Below the pieces are notes generated by a model that saw only the letters and a list, made by a program, of their open reading frames with translations, had not been told where the DNA came from and ran no database searches. Of a stretch of DNA of 64,000 nt, positions 1 to 10,787 are shown piece after piece. Within the stretch, counting starts at the first letter, position 1. Every line of letters starts with the position of its first letter. Location: positions 1 through 64,000 of the IMG/VR virus record IMGVR_UViG_3300032294_001984; one strand, written 5' to 3'. The stretch is from a virus. Both the position numbers and the translations under genes were made by a program.

Positions 1-51
1 AGCAAGGGACTGAAAATCCCTGTGCCGTTGGTTCGATTCCAACCCTTACCA
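1..51 (+). tRNA. tRNA-Phe (GAA), 5' part cut by window edge
   Basis: The anticodon stem is AGGGA/TCCCT around the loop CTGAAAA, which gives anticodon GAA. It is followed by a T-arm (GTTGG, TTCGATT, CCAAC), the 3' acceptor strand CCTTACC and discriminator A. The D-arm and 5' acceptor strand lie before the window. It is the first member of the left tRNA cluster. Confidence 0.88.
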
Positions 52-127: not shown

Positions 128-260
128 AGTCAAGTGGACGTAATGCGGGATGGTACCCAAGTCCGAAAAACACCACGGTCCATAACCATTTGGACGCGAG
201 ACGTTATAAGGTTGTCTAATCCGTCAAGAACGGTATTCGGTTCGAGTCCGACCTTGACTA
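128..260 (+). tRNA. oversized class II tRNA-like unit, 133 nt
   Basis: The ends pair as a tRNA acceptor (AGTCAAG with CTTGACT, discriminator A). The 3' part has a T-arm with loop TTCGAGT and a variable-arm hairpin CCGT-CAAGA-ACGG, as in Leu/Ser-type tRNAs. The unit is about 45 nt too long. A GGAC/GTCC stem encloses a large D-loop with its own GGG/CCC hairpin, a further GTCC/GGAC hairpin follows, and no clean 7-nt anticodon loop can be drawn. It could be a degenerate tRNA, two recombined tRNAs, a tRNA with an inserted segment, or an RNA using only the tRNA ends. Confidence 0.5.
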
Positions 261-280
261 CTAAAAGCCACGAAAGTGAG

Positions 281-314
281 TTGACAGCTCGGAATAGACG
301 GCAATATAGTCAGG
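281..314 (+). promoter_or_regulatory. conserved 34-nt leader element, copy 1
   Basis: It starts TTGACAGCTCGGAATAGACG and runs into the acceptor strand of the next tRNA-like unit. The same layout, with identical spacing, occurs at 452-485 and 1236-1269. TATAGT lies 18 nt after TTGACA but overlaps the start of the tRNA body, so a simple -35/-10 reading would start transcription inside the tRNA. It may be a leader or processing element. Confidence 0.45.
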
Positions 315-412
315 TGGCGGAATTGGTAGACGCTAAAATAATAGGTGGACAGCGTGCCATTGGGGAAGAACCAAGAAAGTCACGCATACAGGTTCGAATC
401 CTGTCCTGACTA
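308..412 (+). tRNA. oversized tRNA-Leu-like unit, 105 nt
   Basis: Acceptor AGTCAGG pairs with CCTGACT. The D-arm GCGG...CGC is Leu-like and the T-arm is ACAGG-TTCGAAT-CCTGT. The middle is about 20 nt too long. ACGCT/AGCGT closes a 16-nt loop that competes with the D-arm, and GCGTG/CACGC encloses a TTGG-GGAAGAA-CCAA hairpin. If that hairpin were the anticodon arm it would read AAG (Leu), but the invariant T33 is a G. The same T-arm and acceptor recur at 1263-1373 and 1529-1620, so these are paralogues. Confidence 0.5.
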
Positions 413-451
413 CGGCGATGTTTGGCAACTACGCTGATTAGATGAAAGTTG

Positions 452-485
452 TTGACAGCTTGGAAAGACAAGCAAAATGGTCAGG
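452..485 (+). promoter_or_regulatory. conserved 34-nt leader element, copy 2
   Basis: TTGACA is followed by a perfect hairpin GCTTG-GAAAGA-CAAGC and then the acceptor strand GGTCAGG. Copy 3 has the same hairpin with compensating changes (ACTTG/CAGGT), which suggests an RNA structure is kept. Confidence 0.45.
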
Positions 486-573
486 TTGGATATACAAGGT
501 CGGTTCGAGTCCGATGGCAGGTCATGGATGACGGGTAGCTCCCTGTATAGAGGTTCGATTCCTCTTCTGACCT
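479..573 (+). tRNA. chimeric tRNA-like unit, 95 nt
   Basis: GGTCAGG pairs with TCTGACC and there is a terminal T-arm around TTCGATT. A second T-arm-like hairpin (TCGG-TTCGAGT-CCGA) sits in the middle, as if a piece of another tRNA had been inserted. GTCA/TGAC and CGGG/CCCTG hairpins follow. No standard D-arm or anticodon arm is visible. Its amino acid cannot be assigned. Confidence 0.4.
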
Positions 574-623
574 CAAACCTCAGGATTAATTACCCTGAGA
601 ATGGATGATTCGAAGCATCCGAT

Positions 624-724
624 TGGCTATGGTGTAATGGGCACAGAGGAACGGAGTAATGGCAGGTGCTTTAGCAACCGGTGAAATGGGACTCAGGAAT
701 CAGGTTCGAATCCTTGTTAGTCAG
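624..724 (+). tRNA. oversized tRNA-like unit, 101 nt
   Basis: TGGCTA pairs with TAGTCA at the ends. The D-arm TATGGTGTAATGGGCAC resembles Gln/Trp-type D-arms of Bacteroidetes, and a T-loop TTCGAAT is present but its stem is imperfect. About 25 extra bases separate the D-arm from the T-arm, and no convincing anticodon arm is visible. Confidence 0.4.
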
Positions 725-804
725 CAAATAACAAACGCAACCAACGGCAATGCGGGCATCCCTGCGGCGCAAGGTGACAACCAGGAAAGACTGGCACTTT
801 ATAT

Positions 805-878
805 GTGGTCTATAGCTCAGTGGTTAGAGTGCTTGATTGTGAATCAAGAGGTCGCGGGTTCAAGTCCCGTTAGACCCC
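805..878 (+). tRNA. tRNA-His (GTG)
   Basis: This is a normal cloverleaf. The anticodon stem CTTGA/TCAAG holds loop TTGTGAA, anticodon GTG. The T-arm is GCGGG-TTCAAGT-CCCGT. An extra 5' G opposite C at the discriminator position is the usual His identity mark. One acceptor pair is mismatched (T opposite C). Confidence 0.9.
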
Positions 879-884
879 CAAAAA

Positions 885-976
885 TAGGTTGGGTTCCCTA
901 GTGGTAACGGTATGAACTTAAGTAAGTAAACCACAAGTATCTAGTAAGAAGTGACTGATGGGTTCGTCACGACCTA
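885..976 (+). tRNA. aberrant tRNA-like unit, 92 nt
   Basis: The acceptor TAGGTTG pairs with CGACCTA (one G-T pair). A D-arm-like GTTCCCTAGTGGTAACGG follows. The T-arm is abnormal: GTGAC/GTCAC closes a 10-nt loop lacking the usual TTCRANY form. The centre has a short ACTT/AAGT hairpin but no recognisable anticodon arm. Confidence 0.38.
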
Positions 977-1017
977 AAAAAATCCGATGTGTTTACCGAG
1001 CTAGGTCGGTTAAAAAT

Positions 1018-1099
1018 GGAAGGGTGGACAATGGTGGTTAAGCGGTCTTGAAAATCGTCGGGTGTAAAAGCTTTGCAGGTTCGAATCCTGTCCCTTCCG
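1018..1099 (+). tRNA. tRNA-Ser (TGA)
   Basis: Acceptor GGAAGGG/CCCTTCC with discriminator G. The anticodon stem around loop CTTGAAA gives TGA. A long variable region is present as expected for Ser, and the T-arm is GCAGG-TTCGAAT-CCTGT. It decodes UCA codons, which are common in this AT-rich genome. Confidence 0.85.
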
Positions 1100-1113
1100 C
1101 TCTGAACTTTTTT

Positions 1114-1187
1114 GTTCTCTTAGCTCAGTCCGGAAGAGCGGCGTTCTCATAAGACGATGGTCTCAGGTTCAAATCCTGAAGGGAACA
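1114..1187 (+). tRNA. tRNA with CAT anticodon (Met, elongator type)
   Basis: Acceptor GTTCTCT/AGGGAAC, D-arm AGCTC...GAGC, anticodon loop CTCATAA (CAT) and T-arm CTCAGG-TTCAAAT-CCTGA. The anticodon stem lacks the three G-C pairs of an initiator tRNA. A CAT tRNA can also be an Ile tRNA modified to lysidine; sequence alone does not decide. Confidence 0.85.
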
Positions 1188-1235
1188 CAAAATCCTGCTT
1201 ACTTGAGGTGATTACACCAATAAGAGATAAGGTGG

Positions 1236-1269
1236 TTGACAACTTGGAAAGACAGGTAATATAGTCAGG
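1236..1269 (+). promoter_or_regulatory. conserved 34-nt leader element, copy 3
   Basis: TTGACA, then hairpin ACTTG-GAAAGA-CAGGT, then AGTCAGG of the following tRNA-like unit. Spacing is identical to copies 1 and 2. Relative to copy 2 two stem positions change together (one compensatory, one to G-T). Confidence 0.45.
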
Positions 1270-1373
1270 TGGCGGAATGGTAGACGCACACTAAGTAACC
1301 GCTTGTCTCTCGGGGATAGTGGGAGGTGGTAATAGAAAATAACTTCATACAGGTTCGAATCCTGTCCTGGCTA
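1263..1373 (+). tRNA. oversized tRNA-Leu-like unit with a 23-nt anticodon loop
   Basis: Acceptor AGTCAGG/CCTGGCT, Leu-like D-arm GCGGAATGGTAGACGC, a good anticodon stem CACTA/TAGTG and a variable arm GAGGT/ACTTC. The T-arm is ACAGG-TTCGAAT-CCTGT. All class II helices are present, but the anticodon loop is 23 nt instead of 7, with an internal CCG/CGG helix. About 16 nt therefore appear inserted in the anticodon loop, far too short for a group I intron. Confidence 0.5.
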
Positions 1374-1386
1374 CAAAATTAAAGAT

Positions 1387-1530
1387 ATGTTTAGAACATT
1401 AAAATACTTATGGAGTAATTTTCAAAAAAGACCATCTAAAAGAAGTTTTTTGAATTTCATTAGAATGATAAAAACCGAGATTAGATGTTTATTAATGACT
1501 GGTTACTCAACAGATGAAATACTAAAATAG
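1387..1530 (+). CDS. small basic protein, 47 aa, unknown
   Basis: An ATG-started frame lies inside the tRNA cluster between two tRNA-like units. The peptide begins MFRTLKYLWSNFQKRPSKRS and is rich in Lys/Arg with hydrophobic segments. Its TAG stop shares bases with the acceptor start of the tRNA-like unit at 1529. The surrounding A-rich context suits Bacteroidetes translation. No family recognised; it could be chance in a low-complexity spacer. Confidence 0.4.
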   Translation: MFRTLKYLWSNFQKRPSKRSFLNFIRMIKTEIRCLLMTGYSTDEILK

Positions 1531-1620
1531 TCAGGTGGCGGAATGGTTGCCAGTAAGCTAAAAAGGCTAACAAAAGTGAATCGGATGAATTTACTACAGG
1601 TTCGAATCCTGTCCTGACTT
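1529..1620 (+). tRNA. aberrant tRNA-Leu-like unit, 92 nt
   Basis: Acceptor AGTCAGG/CCTGACT and T-arm ACAGG-TTCGAAT-CCTGT are as in the two other Leu-like units. A variable arm AGTGAA/TTTACT is clear. The D-arm has changed and the anticodon region can only be drawn as AGC-TAAAAAG-GCT or TTGCC with a bulged GGCTAA; neither keeps T33. Discriminator T. Confidence 0.45.
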
Positions 1621-2487: not shown

Positions 2488-2898
2488 ATGGAAAAAGAAT
2501 TTATACCTTACGAACAAGCATTAGCTTTAAAAGAATTAGGATTTGATGAACCTTGTTTCGGATATTATTACACTCTTAACGGGAAAGATTGGAAATTTGC
2601 AGAAAAAAGTGAATATTATAGATTGGACGATGAAATAAACATAGGTGGTAAATTTAGTTTACTAGCACCAACATACTCCCAAGCATTTAGATGGTTTAGA
2701 GAGAAGTATGAGTATTATTACCACATATTCCCATTACAAATAACTGCATCAGACAAAACAGGATATAGATATTCTTGGGAGATTTATAATCACACTCCTG
2801 AATGGATTACTGAAGATAGGTCACTTTTAGGAAGTCTAACCTATGAAGAAGCTGAACTTGCTTGTCTTAGAAAGTTAATAGAAATAGTAAAAAAATAA
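2488..2898 (+). CDS. tandem paralogue 3, unknown phage protein (136 aa)
   Basis: The third copy has the same N-terminus as copy 2, the SQAFRWFREKYEY block and the C-terminal ACLRKLIEIVKK helix. The central region is rich in Tyr and Trp. It is the last gene before a long structured non-coding stretch. No family name recognised. Confidence 0.8.
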   Translation: MEKEFIPYEQALALKELGFDEPCFGYYYTLNGKDWKFAEKSEYYRLDDEINIGGKFSLLAPTYSQAFRWFREKYEYYYHIFPLQITASDKTGYRYSWEIYNHTPEWITEDRSLLGSLTYEEAELACLRKLIEIVKK

Positions 2899-2904
2899 TT
2901 AAGA

Positions 2905-3392
2905 CCCCACGATTAACGGAAGTACTCGTCCGTTATGGTGTGTTAACCTGACTAGAAGTCTTCTAGGCTATGGGGGAAAGATACACACAGAGTGAAATAC
3001 ATATAATCTCTTATAAACGAGATTTGCTGATTGGGGGAAGTTCCATCAGGTATGTTGGAATCTCAAAACAAATGAGTCCCCTATTATGGGTAAAAGGGGT
3101 AAGGGGCTTTAATTAGTCGTAACACAACCCACAAGCTATAAGAATACTGAACAATCTTATAGTATACACTCCGCTTCCGAGTGAGACTCCCACGTAACTA
3201 TGGGGGTAGGGTGAAGATGTTCTGAGGGTAACCCTGAAAGATGGGTGAGAGTAGAAACCTACCGTGGATGGTTACTATGGTCTAACGAATCTTAGGAGTA
3301 TCGGTATGGGATATTATTGTCGCCAAGATTAATAGAAACTTGGAAGGGTTCTCCCGATGGCGCGGGGATGATTCAGAACCTTTCTTTTTACT
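2905..3392 (+). ncRNA. large structured RNA candidate (~490 nt)
   Basis: About 500 bases without a gene, much more G-rich than the genome around it. Perfect hairpins are visible: TAACGGA/TCCGTTA at 2914-2935, CTAGAA/TTCTAG at 2952-2966, CTATAAGA/TCTTATAG at 3136-3162. At the 3' end a 9-bp stem AAGGGTTCT/AGAACCTTT (3344-3383) encloses CCCG/CGGG and runs into TTTCTTTTTA. The lack of coding, the length and the position beside tRNAs recall the giant phage RNAs GOLLD and ROOL. I cannot match their consensus by eye. RNase P and tmRNA hallmarks are absent. Confidence 0.6.
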
Positions 3393-5016: not shown

Positions 5017-5091
5017 AGGGGTATAGTCTCGGGGTGAGACGCTTGCTTTGGGAGCAAGAGGCGGGGAATTCGACTTTCTCTACCCCTACCA
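5017..5091 (+). tRNA. tRNA-Pro (TGG), CCA encoded
   Basis: Acceptor AGGGGTA/TACCCCT, D-arm GTCTC...GAGAC, anticodon stem CTTGC/GCAAG with loop TTTGGGA (TGG) and T-arm GGGAA/TTCTC. The sequence after the acceptor reads ACCA, so CCA is in the DNA. Confidence 0.92.
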
Positions 5092-5094
5092 TAT

Positions 5095-5166
5095 TGTCAC
5101 GTAATTCAGTGGTAGAATCCTTCCCTGATACGGAAGTCGTCAGAGGTTCGAATCCTCTCGTGACAA
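5095..5166 (+). tRNA. tRNA-Ile (GAT)
   Basis: Acceptor TGTCACG/CGTGACA, anticodon stem CTTCC/GGAAG with loop CTGATAC (GAT) and T-arm AGAGG-TTCGAAT-CCTCT. Regular 72-nt cloverleaf. Confidence 0.93.
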
Positions 5167-5169
5167 CAA

Positions 5170-5320
5170 AAAAATCGTTACTCGGTCACGAGTGAAGGTG
5201 TGTAATGATATCAACACCGCAGGTTAAGCGATATCCTGCAATTCTCCCTCGAAGCTTTAAGGTGAAGCACGATACTTTTAATATCGAGAAGTTGGGTCGG
5301 TACCATCCGGGGGAACAAAT
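5170..5320 (+). ncRNA. structured RNA candidate between tRNAs (~150 nt)
   Basis: The gap between tRNA-Ile and tRNA-Cys is much longer than other gaps here and holds a row of hairpins: ACTCG-GTCA-CGAGT (5180-5193), GGTGT/ACACC (5197-5218), GCAGG/CCTGC (5219-5239) and CGATA/TATCG (5270-5286). A GGTACCATCCGGGGG tail follows. No tRNA fold fits and no frame of note is open. It is probably an RNA co-transcribed with the tRNAs; family unknown. Confidence 0.5.
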
Positions 5321-5325
5321 TTTAT

Positions 5326-5397
5326 GTTTGGATGGCCGAGTGGTTTAGGTTCTCGTCTGCAAAATGAGATAGGTCGGTTCGATTCCGACTCCAAACT
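5326..5397 (+). tRNA. tRNA-Cys (GCA)
   Basis: Acceptor GTTTGGA/TCCAAAC, anticodon stem CTCGT/ATGAG with loop CTGCAAA (GCA), T-arm GTCGG-TTCGATT-CCGAC. The discriminator is T, as expected for Cys. Confidence 0.92.
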
Positions 5398-5408
5398 CAA
5401 AAAAAAAT

Positions 5409-5479
5409 GTATCTTTGGTGTAACGGTAGCATAAACGGTTCCAACCCGTTTGGTCAGAGTTCGAATCTTTGAGGATATG
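5409..5479 (+). tRNA. tRNA-Trp (CCA)
   Basis: Anticodon stem AACGG/CCGTT with loop TTCCAAC (CCA). The D-arm TTGGTGTAACGGTAGC has the Bacteroidetes Trp look. The acceptor GTATCTT/AGGATAT is weak, with G-T and T-G pairs; discriminator G. Confidence 0.85.
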
Positions 5480-5490
5480 CAAATTTAATT

Positions 5491-5576
5491 GGAAGTGTTG
5501 AGCAAATGGTGTGCTCGCCTGTCTGTAAAATAGGTCCCTTGCGGTAAACTTGTAGGTTCAAGTCCTACCACTTCCA
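5491..5576 (+). tRNA. tRNA-Tyr (GTA)
   Basis: Class II tRNA with acceptor GGAAGTG/CACTTCC, anticodon stem CCTGT/ATAGG with loop CTGTAAA (GTA), variable arm and T-arm GTAGG-TTCAAGT-CCTAC. 86 nt, normal for Tyr. Confidence 0.92.
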
Positions 5577-5583
5577 CATTTAT

Positions 5584-5654
5584 TGTTGGGTCGTCTAACG
5601 GTAAGACATCTCCCTTTGAAGGAGATTACGGTGGTTCGAATCCACCCCCGACAA
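5584..5654 (+). tRNA. tRNA-Gln (TTG)
   Basis: Acceptor TGTTGGG/CCCGACA, D-arm GTCTAACGGTAAGAC, anticodon stem TCTCC/GGAGA with loop CTTTGAA (TTG). T-loop TTCGAAT. Regular. Confidence 0.92.
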
Positions 5655-5667
5655 CTTTTTTAATTAT

Positions 5668-5741
5668 AATCCCTTAGCTTAATGGAATGGAGCACTTGAA
5701 TACGAATCAAGAGGTTGTGGGTTCGAATCCTTCCAAAACCA
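5668..5741 (+). tRNA. tRNA-Arg (ACG) with unpaired acceptor stem
   Basis: The D-arm (AGCTTAATGGAATGGAGC) and anticodon arm CTTGA-ATACGAA-TCAAG (anticodon ACG) are good. The expected 5' acceptor strand AATCCCT does not pair with the 3' strand CAAAACC, and the T-stem is imperfect. T33 is present. It may be a decaying gene, need editing, or use a shifted 5' end. Confidence 0.6.
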
Positions 5742-5746
5742 CAAAT

Positions 5747-5818
5747 TGCGATGTAGTTCAGTGGTAGAACGCTTGACTCATATCCAAGAAGTCGAAGGTT
5801 CAATTCCTTCCATCGCAA
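5747..5818 (+). tRNA. tRNA with CAT anticodon (Met or Ile2)
   Basis: Acceptor TGCGATG/CATCGCA, D-arm GTTCAGTGGTAGAAC, anticodon loop CTCATAT (CAT) on stem CTTGA/CCAAG with one mismatch, T-arm GAAGG-TTCAATT-CCTTC. It is the second CAT tRNA in the window, so one of the two could be the Ile-lysidine type. Confidence 0.88.
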
Positions 5819-5871
5819 CAATTTTTTCACAAATGATGTCCTTTTGATTTGGAAATTAGTGAGATTTTTTT

Positions 5872-5879
5872 TATATTTG
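5872..5879 (+). promoter_or_regulatory. Bacteroidetes-type promoter TTTG-N20-TATATTTG
   Basis: The -7 box TATATTTG has a TTTG at 5848-5851, exactly 20 nt upstream, matching both halves of the Bacteroidetes consensus. It fixes the start of the next gene at 5901. Confidence 0.75.
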
Positions 5880-5900
5880 CAGTTAATCAATTTTTATAAT

Positions 5901-6221
5901 ATGTTACAAAAAAGAAAAAATTCGTTTAAACGAATTGTTAAAGAATACAAAGATGCAACCACAAGAGAAATTATAGAAGCAATAGTGGATAATGCCTTAT
6001 ATGGGTTCTTAGGTGCGGTCATAGTAGTTGCGATTGCGACCAAAATGGATGTTGCGGTATTAGGTGCGTATTTCATTTATTATTCTTATGTCGGTAAAAT
6101 AATCAATCGTCCTAAGTATGTTACCGACCTTGGTAAAATCGTTATATTCCCAACATCATCAGCGTTAGGAGCCTTTACCGGTTACAAATTGAGTTATCAC
6201 ATATTGGAGTGGTTAAAATAA
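5901..6221 (+). CDS. small membrane protein, 106 aa, unknown
   Basis: The ATG at 5901 is chosen because the promoter box ends at 5879; an upstream TTG in frame would lie before it. The protein has a basic, soluble N-terminal 35 residues, then hydrophobic segments (LYGFLGAVIVVAIAT and AVLGAYFIYYSYVG) and a third weaker one near the end. It sits between two tRNAs. A role at the membrane is plausible; holin-like function is possible but nothing specific supports it. Confidence 0.7.
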   Translation: MLQKRKNSFKRIVKEYKDATTREIIEAIVDNALYGFLGAVIVVAIATKMDVAVLGAYFIYYSYVGKIINRPKYVTDLGKIVIFPTSSALGAFTGYKLSYHILEWLK

Positions 6222-6222
6222 T

Positions 6223-6306
6223 GGAAGGTTGTCAGAGCGGTAATGAGGCAGTTTGCTAAACTGTGGTCGAGGAATCGGCCCGTGGGTTCGAATCCCGCAC
6301 CTTCCG
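6223..6306 (+). tRNA. tRNA-Ser (GCT)
   Basis: Class II tRNA with acceptor GGAAGGT/ACCTTCC, anticodon stem GCAGT/ACTGT with loop TTGCTAA (GCT), variable arm with GGTCGAGGAATCGGCC, T-loop TTCGAAT and discriminator G. It starts one base after the preceding stop codon. Confidence 0.92.
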
Positions 6307-6352
6307 CAAAAAATAAAGTTAAAATAGTTGACAACGTTAGTAATATGGTCTA

Positions 6353-6621: not shown

Positions 6622-7758
6622 TTATAGTAAACCTTTAATTCTTTTTATATTTTCTTCTAATTTATCTTTTTTATTTACCTTAAATAAATTATCTTTCATT
6701 TTTATAAATTCCCTCGCTAATTCGTTATCATAACGAGAATAATCTTTAGAATCACTCTTATCGGGATAAGTAGTTGTTTTACTATCAGTTTTAAAAAAAG
6801 AACTAAACCCTTTGTCTGAATCAGTTTTCTTATTTGAATTAATTTTTTGTTTATCTCCTTTTGAGTTAAGTAATGTTACTTTAACATCAGAATCAGGAGA
6901 GCCTATTACTTCACCTTTTTTTATTTTTTGACCAATCCTAAATCTTGACGACTCAACACCACAATAATTAAGATATGACGTTTTACCTTCAGACTCAAAT
7001 TTTATAGTTAATCCATTACAATCATTAAAATATTTACTAACAACTCCTGAAACAGGGCTTTTAATATTTGAATTTTCTTTTTTTGGTATGAGTATATCAC
7101 CGAACCTTAAACTTGTTTTTTTACCAAGTGATTCATAATCTAAAGATTCTGTGATACCCATCTTCGCAACCAATCCCTTAGCGACTTGGGCTAGAAATCC
7201 GTCATTTTTATCACTTACTGAATTAGTATTAGTGTTTGAGGATGTATTTGTTGTGTCAGTATCCTTTGATGGTGTTGAGGTTGTGTTTGAAATATGTACG
7301 TGATTAAAATGGTTTCCTCCTGTGTTTGTTTGCCATAAGACCGCTTTAGGATTACCTGACTCTGTGTTCCAAACATATCCCATTGAAACCAACGCATCTT
7401 TTAATTTATTACCAAGTTCTCTAAATTTGGCATTACCATTAGTACTGTTAGTTGCTCCATTTGAACCAATTCCATTTATCCTTGCAACATCCACCGCATC
7501 ACCTGTTTCGTGTCTAGTACCTTTATCATGACCACTCACTGCCGTTGTAATATTTACTTTAAGACCAGCTGATTTTGCGGCGCTCTGAACATCTTGTAAT
7601 AGTGAAGTATTAATGTTATCGGAGGCAGGATTACCCTGACCGATATTTTCAAAATCAACATTATCATACACATCCGATGCCTCATTAACATTCTTGTTCT
7701 CAAGAATGACATCATATAATGATAAGATTTCTTTAATTGTTTTATTTCGAGTATTCAT
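6622..7758 (-). CDS. endolysin-like M15 peptidase with degenerate M23-like C-terminus
   Basis: The N-terminal half contains the zinc-peptidase signature of the M15 (D-Ala-D-Ala carboxypeptidase) family: RHETGDAVDV at about residues 82-91 and HFNHVHIS near 150-156, giving the metal ligands His83, Asp90 and a His near 153. A Thr/Ser/Asn-rich linker follows, then a domain like the beta-sheet core of M23 peptidases (SPVSGVV ... GLTIKFES ... IGQKIKKGEVIG). That second domain lacks the His/Asp ligands, so it may bind cell wall without cutting. Residues 11-20 (ILSLYDVILE) fit the [IL]-x-E cleavage motif seen in other candidate virion proteins. An ATAAATA box (reverse TATTTAT) lies 4 nt before the start. 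Role: peptidoglycan cutting at entry or lysis. Confidence 0.8.
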   Translation of the reverse strand: MNTRNKTIKEILSLYDVILENKNVNEASDVYDNVDFENIGQGNPASDNINTSLLQDVQSAAKSAGLKVNITTAVSGHDKGTRHETGDAVDVARINGIGSNGATNSTNGNAKFRELGNKLKDALVSMGYVWNTESGNPKAVLWQTNTGGNHFNHVHISNTTSTPSKDTDTTNTSSNTNTNSVSDKNDGFLAQVAKGLVAKMGITESLDYESLGKKTSLRFGDILIPKKENSNIKSPVSGVVSKYFNDCNGLTIKFESEGKTSYLNYCGVESSRFRIGQKIKKGEVIGSPDSDVKVTLLNSKGDKQKINSNKKTDSDKGFSSFFKTDSKTTTYPDKSDSKDYSRYDNELAREFIKMKDNLFKVNKKDKLEENIKRIKGLL

Positions 7759-7762
7759 ACTA

Positions 7763-7769
7763 ATAAATA
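7763..7769 (-). promoter_or_regulatory. TATTTAT late-box candidate
   Basis: Read on the minus strand GAGTATTTATTAG, ending 4 nt before the start codon of the peptidase gene. Confidence 0.5.
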
Positions 7770-7779
7770 CTCGAAATTT

Positions 7780-7962
7780 CTAAAATTCTTCTTTAGGGAT
7801 AAAAAACCACAATATTAAATATATTGTTGTAATAGGAACCGGAGTGAAGATTAACCCAAAAAATATAAGTTTAATGATAGTTCCATCAATACCAATGTAA
7901 TTACCGATTCCTTCACATACTCCACCAATTGTTGATGATATAGGTCTTTTTAGTTTTTTCAT
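7780..7962 (-). CDS. PspC-domain membrane protein (60 aa)
   Basis: A complete PspC domain: GGVCEGIGNYIGIDGTIIKL then a hydrophobic helix with FTPVPITTIYLILWFFIP. In bacteria PspC-type proteins sit in the inner membrane and take part in envelope-stress signalling. Here it is 60 residues with no partner domain. It follows the lipoprotein gene by one base on the same strand, so the two are likely co-expressed. It may protect or signal membrane stress during infection; that is inference. Confidence 0.85.
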   Translation of the reverse strand: MKKLKRPISSTIGGVCEGIGNYIGIDGTIIKLIFFGLIFTPVPITTIYLILWFFIPKEEF

Positions 7963-10404: not shown

Positions 10405-10787
10405 TGGTGGAGGTAGAGGTTTCGAAACCTCGTGTTGCCCATTTTGACCGTAAGTGACTACACGTTTAGGACAATCTTTTCTAAGATTCCGAAATAGTCG
10501 GTTTGTTCTTCACCATCGTAAACCTAACAACCAATGGACGACTCAATTTAAGGTTTAGTCATTTTTTCACCCGTCAAGGACTTCTGTTCCTGGGTTAATG
10601 TCCTCCCGACCCGAATGTAGTAGAGACTAGGCTACTGCTACAAGCTCATCTTGTTTAACAAGACCTACTAGAGCCATTTTGTTTAGAACGTTGCCGTCTG
10701 TTGTTTTGAACCAGTTGATAACGAAGTTAATTCAGCTTCGACGTGCCACCTACACCCAACAATGCCAGTCAATTCCATTTTACCCCC
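10405..10787 (-). ncRNA. ssrA: transfer-messenger RNA (tmRNA)
   Basis: Both ends fit tmRNA. The 5' strand GGGGGTA pairs with 3' TACCTCC, followed by ACCA, and the start GGGGGTAAAATGGAATTGAC resembles the conserved GGATTCGAC region. The self-complementary T-arm includes TTTCGAA. An internal tag frame runs from 10695 to 10627 on the minus strand: a Gly resume codon after ACAGAC, 22 residues ending DELVAVA and a TAG stop. The 383-nt length is normal. tmRNA frees stalled ribosomes and tags the product for proteolysis. The tag ends AVA rather than LAA, and its protease is unknown. The T-loop is 6 or 8 nt instead of 7, which is odd. Promoter and terminator are both visible. Confidence 0.92.

Follow-up and report, generated by a model that had tools for sequence, protein, structure and literature searches.

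What are the oversized transfer RNA (tRNA)-like sequences that lie among ordinary tRNA genes at one end of this viral DNA? The stretch analysed here, called the window, comprises 64,000 nucleotides (nt), positions 1 to 64,000 of the IMG/VR virus record IMGVR_UViG_3300032294_001984. An earlier note on the letters of this DNA had described seven units with tRNA ends and enlarged middles in its first 1,620 nt. All seven are present (128-260, 308-412, 479-573, 624-724, 886-976, 1263-1373, and 1529-1620; every feature of the array lies on the + strand), and each is named here by its first position. Our results suggest that the units are probably non-decoding RNAs that are processed like tRNAs and display exchangeable structured domains. 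They resemble a natural "RNA display frame" in large uncultured bacterial viruses, not broken tRNAs.

Units 308, 1263, and 1529 are built on one tRNA-Leu-like frame, with the acceptor AGTCAGG/CCTGACT, the T arm ACAGG-TTCGAAT-CCTGT, and a Leu-type D arm (GGCGGAATTGGTAGACGC). The T-arm-plus-acceptor sequence ACAGGTTCGAATCCTGTCCTGRCT is exact in units 308 and 1529, and unit 1263 has one G for A. These three had been taken as paralogues that share the T arm and acceptor and diverged in the decoding half, and our comparison agrees with that. Unit 308 has a non-anticodon middle of 54 nt with the conserved core GTGGAYAGYGTGCCATTGGGG..CCAAGAAAGTYAC. Unit 1263 contains the 23-nt loop described before, closed by a CACTA/TAGTG stem, and a variable-arm-like helix, GAGGT/ACTTC; it has the frame in common with its relatives but not the middle. 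Unit 1529 is without a convincing anticodon arm. ARAGORN calls it tRNA-Phe(aaa), and its Rfam score of only 29.1 bits is at the Rfam threshold.

The frame is widespread. The 24-nt sequence ACAGGTTCGAATCCTGTCCTGRCT and the 26-nt 5' half AGTCAGGTGGCGGAATTGGTAGACGC were each found, as exact matches, in at least 120 viral contigs, and the recurrence of the AGTCAGG frame is far above chance. The stretch between the constant 5' and 3' halves is hypervariable. Clustering by insert divided an initial 316 unique units into 234 clusters, and with more searches the collection grew to 450 distinct units (each at least 76 nt) in about 290 unrelated middle clusters, 220 of which were singletons. These units were mostly gathered by frame patterns and a detector that needs a T-loop motif; numbers per phage are lower bounds, as the contigs are fragments, and some loci (L numbers below) overlap or share one contig. 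ARAGORN called 66 of the 316 units, mostly with implausible anticodons. Two truncated units were also seen, at L314:3317-3395 and L135 ~2459; one consists of a 5' half and middle without a T arm, and the other of a conserved middle and 3' half without a 5' half.

The 5' half turned up in three short contigs among 85,000 bacterial and archaeal species genomes, all three with hypervariable units inside tRNA clusters or among small open reading frames (ORFs). A MiaB-type Radical-SAM/UPF0004 gene is also present in one of these contigs (L155). We read the three as phage contigs binned into metagenome-assembled genomes. Neither the whole frame nor the two tested inserts occurred in any of 50,697 named phage records, where the matches were ordinary tRNA-Leu, tRNA-Gln, and T-arm pieces. 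In the huge phages LR756500, LR756502, and LR756504, neighbouring ORFs and tRNA-scale pieces matched, and no AGTCAGG units were found.

The units lack a decoding arm almost throughout. A standard anticodon arm (5 base pairs (bp), 7-nt loop, U33) after the D arm was present in 4 of 225 middles, with 1.1 expected by shuffling, while the same test was positive for 311 of the 423 other tRNA predictions of those loci. Their ends, by comparison, are those of tRNAs. The frequencies of U-1, A73, and C74 were 0.82, 0.88, and 0.98 in the units, and other tRNAs of those loci had U-1 at 0.66 and C74 at 0.96. Bacterial RNase P contacts U-1 and the 3' RCC, and from these signals we infer that the units are processed like tRNA. 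The leucyl-tRNA synthetase LeuRS does not read the anticodon, and A73 together with the Leu-type D arm would be compatible with this enzyme. The G3-U70 alanine pair does not occur in the frame: position 3 is T in 448 of 450 units, and its partner is A in 437 of 450.

The middles themselves bear marks of selection on RNA structure. Searched for by insert alone, and thus independently of the frame patterns, the core of unit 308 was found in 41 contigs and that of unit 479 in 53. The 39-nt core of unit 308 is nearly invariant across 21 distinct units, and about 50 nt of unit 479 are likewise nearly invariant. In the structure proposed for unit 308, 99.6% of cells pair, and 10 pairs are changed on both sides (4 in the acceptor, 4 in the T stem, and 2 in the insert stem), a count that none of 500 shuffles reached. 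For unit 479 there were 6 such pairs, again with 0 of 500 shuffles as high; its 4-bp outer stem had no covariation support, and one hairpin pair was unpaired in 8/20. The compensatory changes in both units indicate that the acceptor and T stem are retained as RNA helices. Overall, the middles fold more strongly than their shuffles (mean z -0.72, standard error of the mean 0.075, n=215), compared with a z of -1.38 for the middles of normal tRNAs on the same measure. The inserts are enriched in GNRA hairpins (21 vs 8.4 ± 2.3), in 4-bp GAAA hairpins (10 vs 1.6 ± 1.1), and in internal T-loop hairpins (3 vs 0.2). Also enriched is a 6-bp helix (41 vs 17.7 ± 3.1) that stops exactly 2 nt short of the T stem, at the site of the class II variable arm; an H-type pseudoknot layout is mildly enriched (16 vs 7.9 at a score of at least 14). 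No common sequence motif was found among the middles. One universal fold was rejected, as a general closing helix was absent and neither the T-stem-adjacent helix nor the pseudoknot layout was universal. Antisense guides were rejected as well: a 15-mer common to other fetched phage DNA was present in 87 of 216 inserts against 65 for shuffles, and this excess looks like unmasked relatives.

Units and inserts also behave as modules. Over stretches, the L011 array matches the window at 96-100% identity, whereas identity in the neighbouring aminotransferase gene is 71% at the DNA level, and in the unit at L011:5828 the leader of unit 1263 is combined with the unit 308 middle and the unit 1529 3' flank. 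Unit 624 (624..724) has a second constant frame of the TGATTAT/TTAATCA type, with the D arm GGTGTAATGGGCAC. Both of its ends are common to 8 relatives, and its middle varies among phages, several middles being unrelated. In unit 128 (128..260; 133 nt, acceptor AGTCAAG/CTTGACT), the middle comprises a core, GCGTAATGxGGGAxGGTxCCC..., and two modules. Among relatives, L030 lacks the middle module, and L205 and L221 have another in its place; in L162/L183 the later module is absent or replaced, and a core-only form of 76 nt occurs at L011:4588. Judged from these comparisons, inserts are swapped between constant halves, and whole units move. Related phages carry the same or other odd units at these positions, and not normal cloverleaf tRNAs.

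Among the options raised in the earlier note, RNAs that use tRNA ends for processing best fit the U-1/C74 signals, the anticodon-arm test, and the insert clusters. In such RNAs the constant frame would provide the features for tRNA processing and stability (acceptor, T arm, and usually D arm), and the anticodon and variable arms would be replaced by one of hundreds of structured RNA domains. The units might be transcribed together with real tRNAs, cleaved by RNase P and the 3' tRNase, and then supplied with CCA; stable RNAs of 90-180 nt would accumulate, and the middle would bind something in trans. It is quite possible, if short of probable, that this forms a natural RNA-display system, in which tRNA frames serve as stable RNase P-processed carriers and domains exchanged by recombination make up a fast-evolving trans-acting repertoire of decoys, sponges, or inhibitors. 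In that same, equally guarded proposal, the frames and their hundreds of domains would be kept by one lineage, or one gene pool, of large bacterial viruses. The domains vary greatly and are swapped between phages, yet they stay conserved once established, and on this ground RNAs that act in trans on host factors would be favoured. More tentatively, the leading guess is that the domains serve as decoys or sponges against a host factor, for example an RNA-binding protein or a tRNA-directed defence enzyme, a role that would explain the diversification and swapping of the middles.

Several observations weigh against non-decoding display RNAs. Some AGTCAGG units resemble real tRNAs, for example the Lys (TTT) cloverleaf in L065 and L211, so by sequence the AGTCAGG class is not purely non-decoding. 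The constancy of the frame arises partly by construction, from the frame-pattern searches and the T-loop detector. Outside relatives, the fetched phage DNA shows no enrichment of 15-mers from the inserts. In addition, transcription, end processing, and CCA addition are all predictions from sequence.

Phage tRNAs counter anticodon nucleases, and a specific form of the decoy proposal is that the units directly bait these nucleases or other tRNA-cutting defence toxins. Their location in tRNA arrays of large phages with real tRNAs fits such a role. Moreover, a match to transfer-messenger RNA (tmRNA; RF00023) was found in 13 of 14 large unit-bearing records, eleven of them above the gathering score, which suits infections with RNA cleavage. 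However, anticodon nucleases read the anticodon loop, which nearly all units lack, and the size and diversity of the middles would not be needed, so we regard this form as rather unlikely. Next in our estimate, and also unlikely, is that the units act as tRNA punctuation, that is, as RNase P/RNase Z cleavage signals separating small-gene transcripts, with a middle that hardly matters. About 17 units alternate with small ORFs in G003 (L314), an ORF starts at most 50 nt downstream of 32% of units compared with 21% of normal tRNAs, and the U-1/C74 signals are retained. But the middles of units 308 and 479 would then have little reason to stay nearly invariant and covarying in 41 and 53 contigs, or the inserts to be GNRA-enriched, and the units of the window are clustered, mostly without ORFs between them.

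A further alternative, ranked behind punctuation and again improbable, is that the units are selfish mobile tRNA-ended elements that copy themselves or are multiplied by recombination and bring the phage no benefit. The flanks speak for it: the 22 distinct contexts of unit 308 copies fell into 19 upstream and 21 downstream flank groups, unrelated flanks thus being almost as numerous as copies, and similarity among the copies ends sharply at the acceptor ends, at T-1 and C74. Inserts are also gained and lost modularly. Copies of a mobile element should resemble each other, yet one frame holds about 290 unrelated middles; the compensatory changes show selection on RNA structure, and no mobilising enzyme was identified.

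tRNAs with small introns that are spliced out, an option of the earlier note, are very unlikely. The frames resemble tRNA exons, and otherwise normal tRNAs in relatives have insertions in the D loop (L062 ~7678) or the variable loop (L276, L153). The intron model was nevertheless dropped on position-wise base composition, anchored helices, and a hairpin census that gave no anticodon signal: there was no base preference at the expected U33 offset, anticodon-type hairpins anywhere in the middles were not in excess (18 vs 15.7 ± 4.8), and a normal anticodon arm was nearly always missing. Group I or II introns would need longer inserts, and RtcB was not found in the 14 large phage records. Decaying or mis-recombined tRNA pseudogenes, also raised before and the least probable account, would match the many singleton middles (220 of 290 clusters), frames differing chiefly in the decoding half, and the truncated copies (L135, L314:3317), but decay was rejected because the 308 and 479 middles recur nearly unchanged with compensatory stem changes, the inserts are GNRA-enriched, and the acceptor and T stems and processing signals are maintained.

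Insertions were also observed outside the anticodon region. Very long variable regions occur in tRNAs that otherwise appear to decode, with Ser, Gln, and Asp anticodons, in L276 (a 252-kb record), L153 (LR756504), and L237, and the Ser and Gln tRNAs of L276 have related inserts there. Structured extra insertions in the D loop of tRNA-like units were seen in L062 (~7678-7856), L317/L335, L120, and L314 (~3596). One of the D-loop cases is a Met (CAT) tRNA that looks normal apart from an insertion of about 115 nt.

How do the units compare with known RNAs? They share the acceptor, T arm, Leu-type D arm, prevailing A73, U-1/C74 signals, and tRNA-array location with phage tRNAs and tRNA-Leu, but differ from tRNAs in that 221 of 225 middles have no standard anticodon arm and that the inserts, of about 25-150 nt, are unrelated between units. 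As in tmRNA, a structured insert stands in place of the anticodon part between tRNA-like ends, and the same phages encode tmRNAs; unlike tmRNA (about 380 nt), the units have 76-200 nt, T3-A70 in place of the G3-U70 alanine pair, and no recognised tag reading frame. Against the covariance model RF00023 they gave no tmRNA match, scoring as RF00005 or as nothing. Y RNA and YrlA (RF02553) are likewise non-decoding RNAs with a tRNA-mimicking module. That module is internal in YrlA, whereas the tRNA part forms the RNA ends in the units, there was no gathering-score match to RF02553, and a TROVE (Ro60-type) gene accompanies the units in only 2 of 14 large records. The units would be the natural, diversified counterpart of the engineered tRNA scaffold, a laboratory design in which a foreign structured RNA takes the place of the anticodon arm and tRNA processing and stability are kept. 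The outer boxes of integron attC sites (RYYYAAC / GTTRRRY) are not seen, the ends being AGTCAGG and CCTGACT; no integrase search was made. GOLLD and ROOL are structured phage non-coding RNAs near tRNA islands, of unknown function (PMC12286853). They are much larger (many GOLLD members exceed 800 nt) and form RNA nanocages, whereas the units are small and end like tRNAs; neither the GOLLD nor the ROOL Rfam model gave a match. No description of the unit class was found in Rfam 15, nor in literature searched on tRNA-like RNAs of phages, introns in jumbo phages, and tRNA scaffolds, a weak negative as the literature coverage was incomplete.

If expressed, the units would form a very large class of viral non-coding RNA that is unannotated and that the usual tRNA finders miss or mis-call, and the tRNA would be an evolvable carrier for other RNA functions. 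The units would also be a source of small natural RNA domains by the hundred, including some that hardly vary across dozens of phages, and host factors are the probable targets of these domains. Huge-phage tRNA counts and anticodon calls may include non-decoding RNAs.

The remaining units of the array depart further from the cloverleaf. Unit 479 (479..573) is a real odd unit, as reported, but its architecture needs amending: it has no standard D arm, and its nested multibranch middle includes a second, internal T-loop hairpin, GTCGG-TTCGAGT-CCGAT. Unit 886 (886..976) has a normal-looking D arm and a T stem GTGAC/GTCAC whose 10-nt loop is not of the T-loop type; the unit is 99% identical in L011 and 83-86% identical in L014/L016/L030. 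Ordinary tRNAs for His (GTG, 806..879), Ser (TGA, 1018..1100), and Met (CAT, 1114..1188) were recognised by both ARAGORN and Rfam, as the earlier note had it. The regular Phe of that note is a partial gene, the 3' part of a normal tRNA-Phe (GAA) truncated by the window edge (1..51, Rfam); over 1-1620, ARAGORN gave a doubtful "Phe" besides His, Ser, and Met. A further, ordinary tRNA array was found by ARAGORN at 5017-6307.

A second common RNA element accompanies the units. It consists of a variable 5' stem-loop, TGAC, and a covarying hairpin with the conserved loop GGAAAGAC (or GGAATAGAC), and 77 distinct copies are present in related loci, preceding many odd units, some normal tRNAs, and some ORFs. 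In the window, where it has no Rfam match, it occurs at 280..302 (GTTGAC and a hairpin with the loop GGAATAGAC), at 425..473 (GCAACT/AGTTGT stem, TGAC, and the hairpin GCTTG-GAAAGA-CAAGC), at 775..795 before a normal tRNA (TGAC and CCAG-GAAAGA-CTGG), and at 1235..1257 (GTTGAC and ACTTG-GAAAGA-CAGGT). In L259, 78-nt tandem copies of the element lie upstream of a terminator-like hairpin.

The source phage of the window is a large T4-like phage, whose 68-kb virus record contains Gp20 portal, Gp23 capsid, and terminase genes. Its host is likely to belong to Bacteroidota, because Bacteroidota-type promoter motifs are mildly enriched in the window (11 vs 4.8 ± 2.2). The window is among the large records with a tmRNA match: its phage-encoded tmRNA lies at 10405-10787 on the - strand (RF00023, 73.7 bits), and others were matched by RF00023 at L016:13658-14048 and L095:5724-6218. 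TROVE-domain (Ro60-type) genes were found in 2 of 14 large phages with units or the 479-type insert (L394:796-2421 and L395:1363-2943) and not in the other 12 large records. At 1685-2898 there are three tandem paralogous ORFs (F-V/I-PYxxALxLxELGFD), the first of them without a Pfam match, with matches in the huge phages LR756500, LR756502, and LR756504. Between these ORFs and the aminotransferase gene lies a structured-looking non-coding element of about 490 nt (2896-3390, +), which has no Rfam match and shows 68-84% nucleotide identity in L006/L007, L010, L016/L017, and L190.

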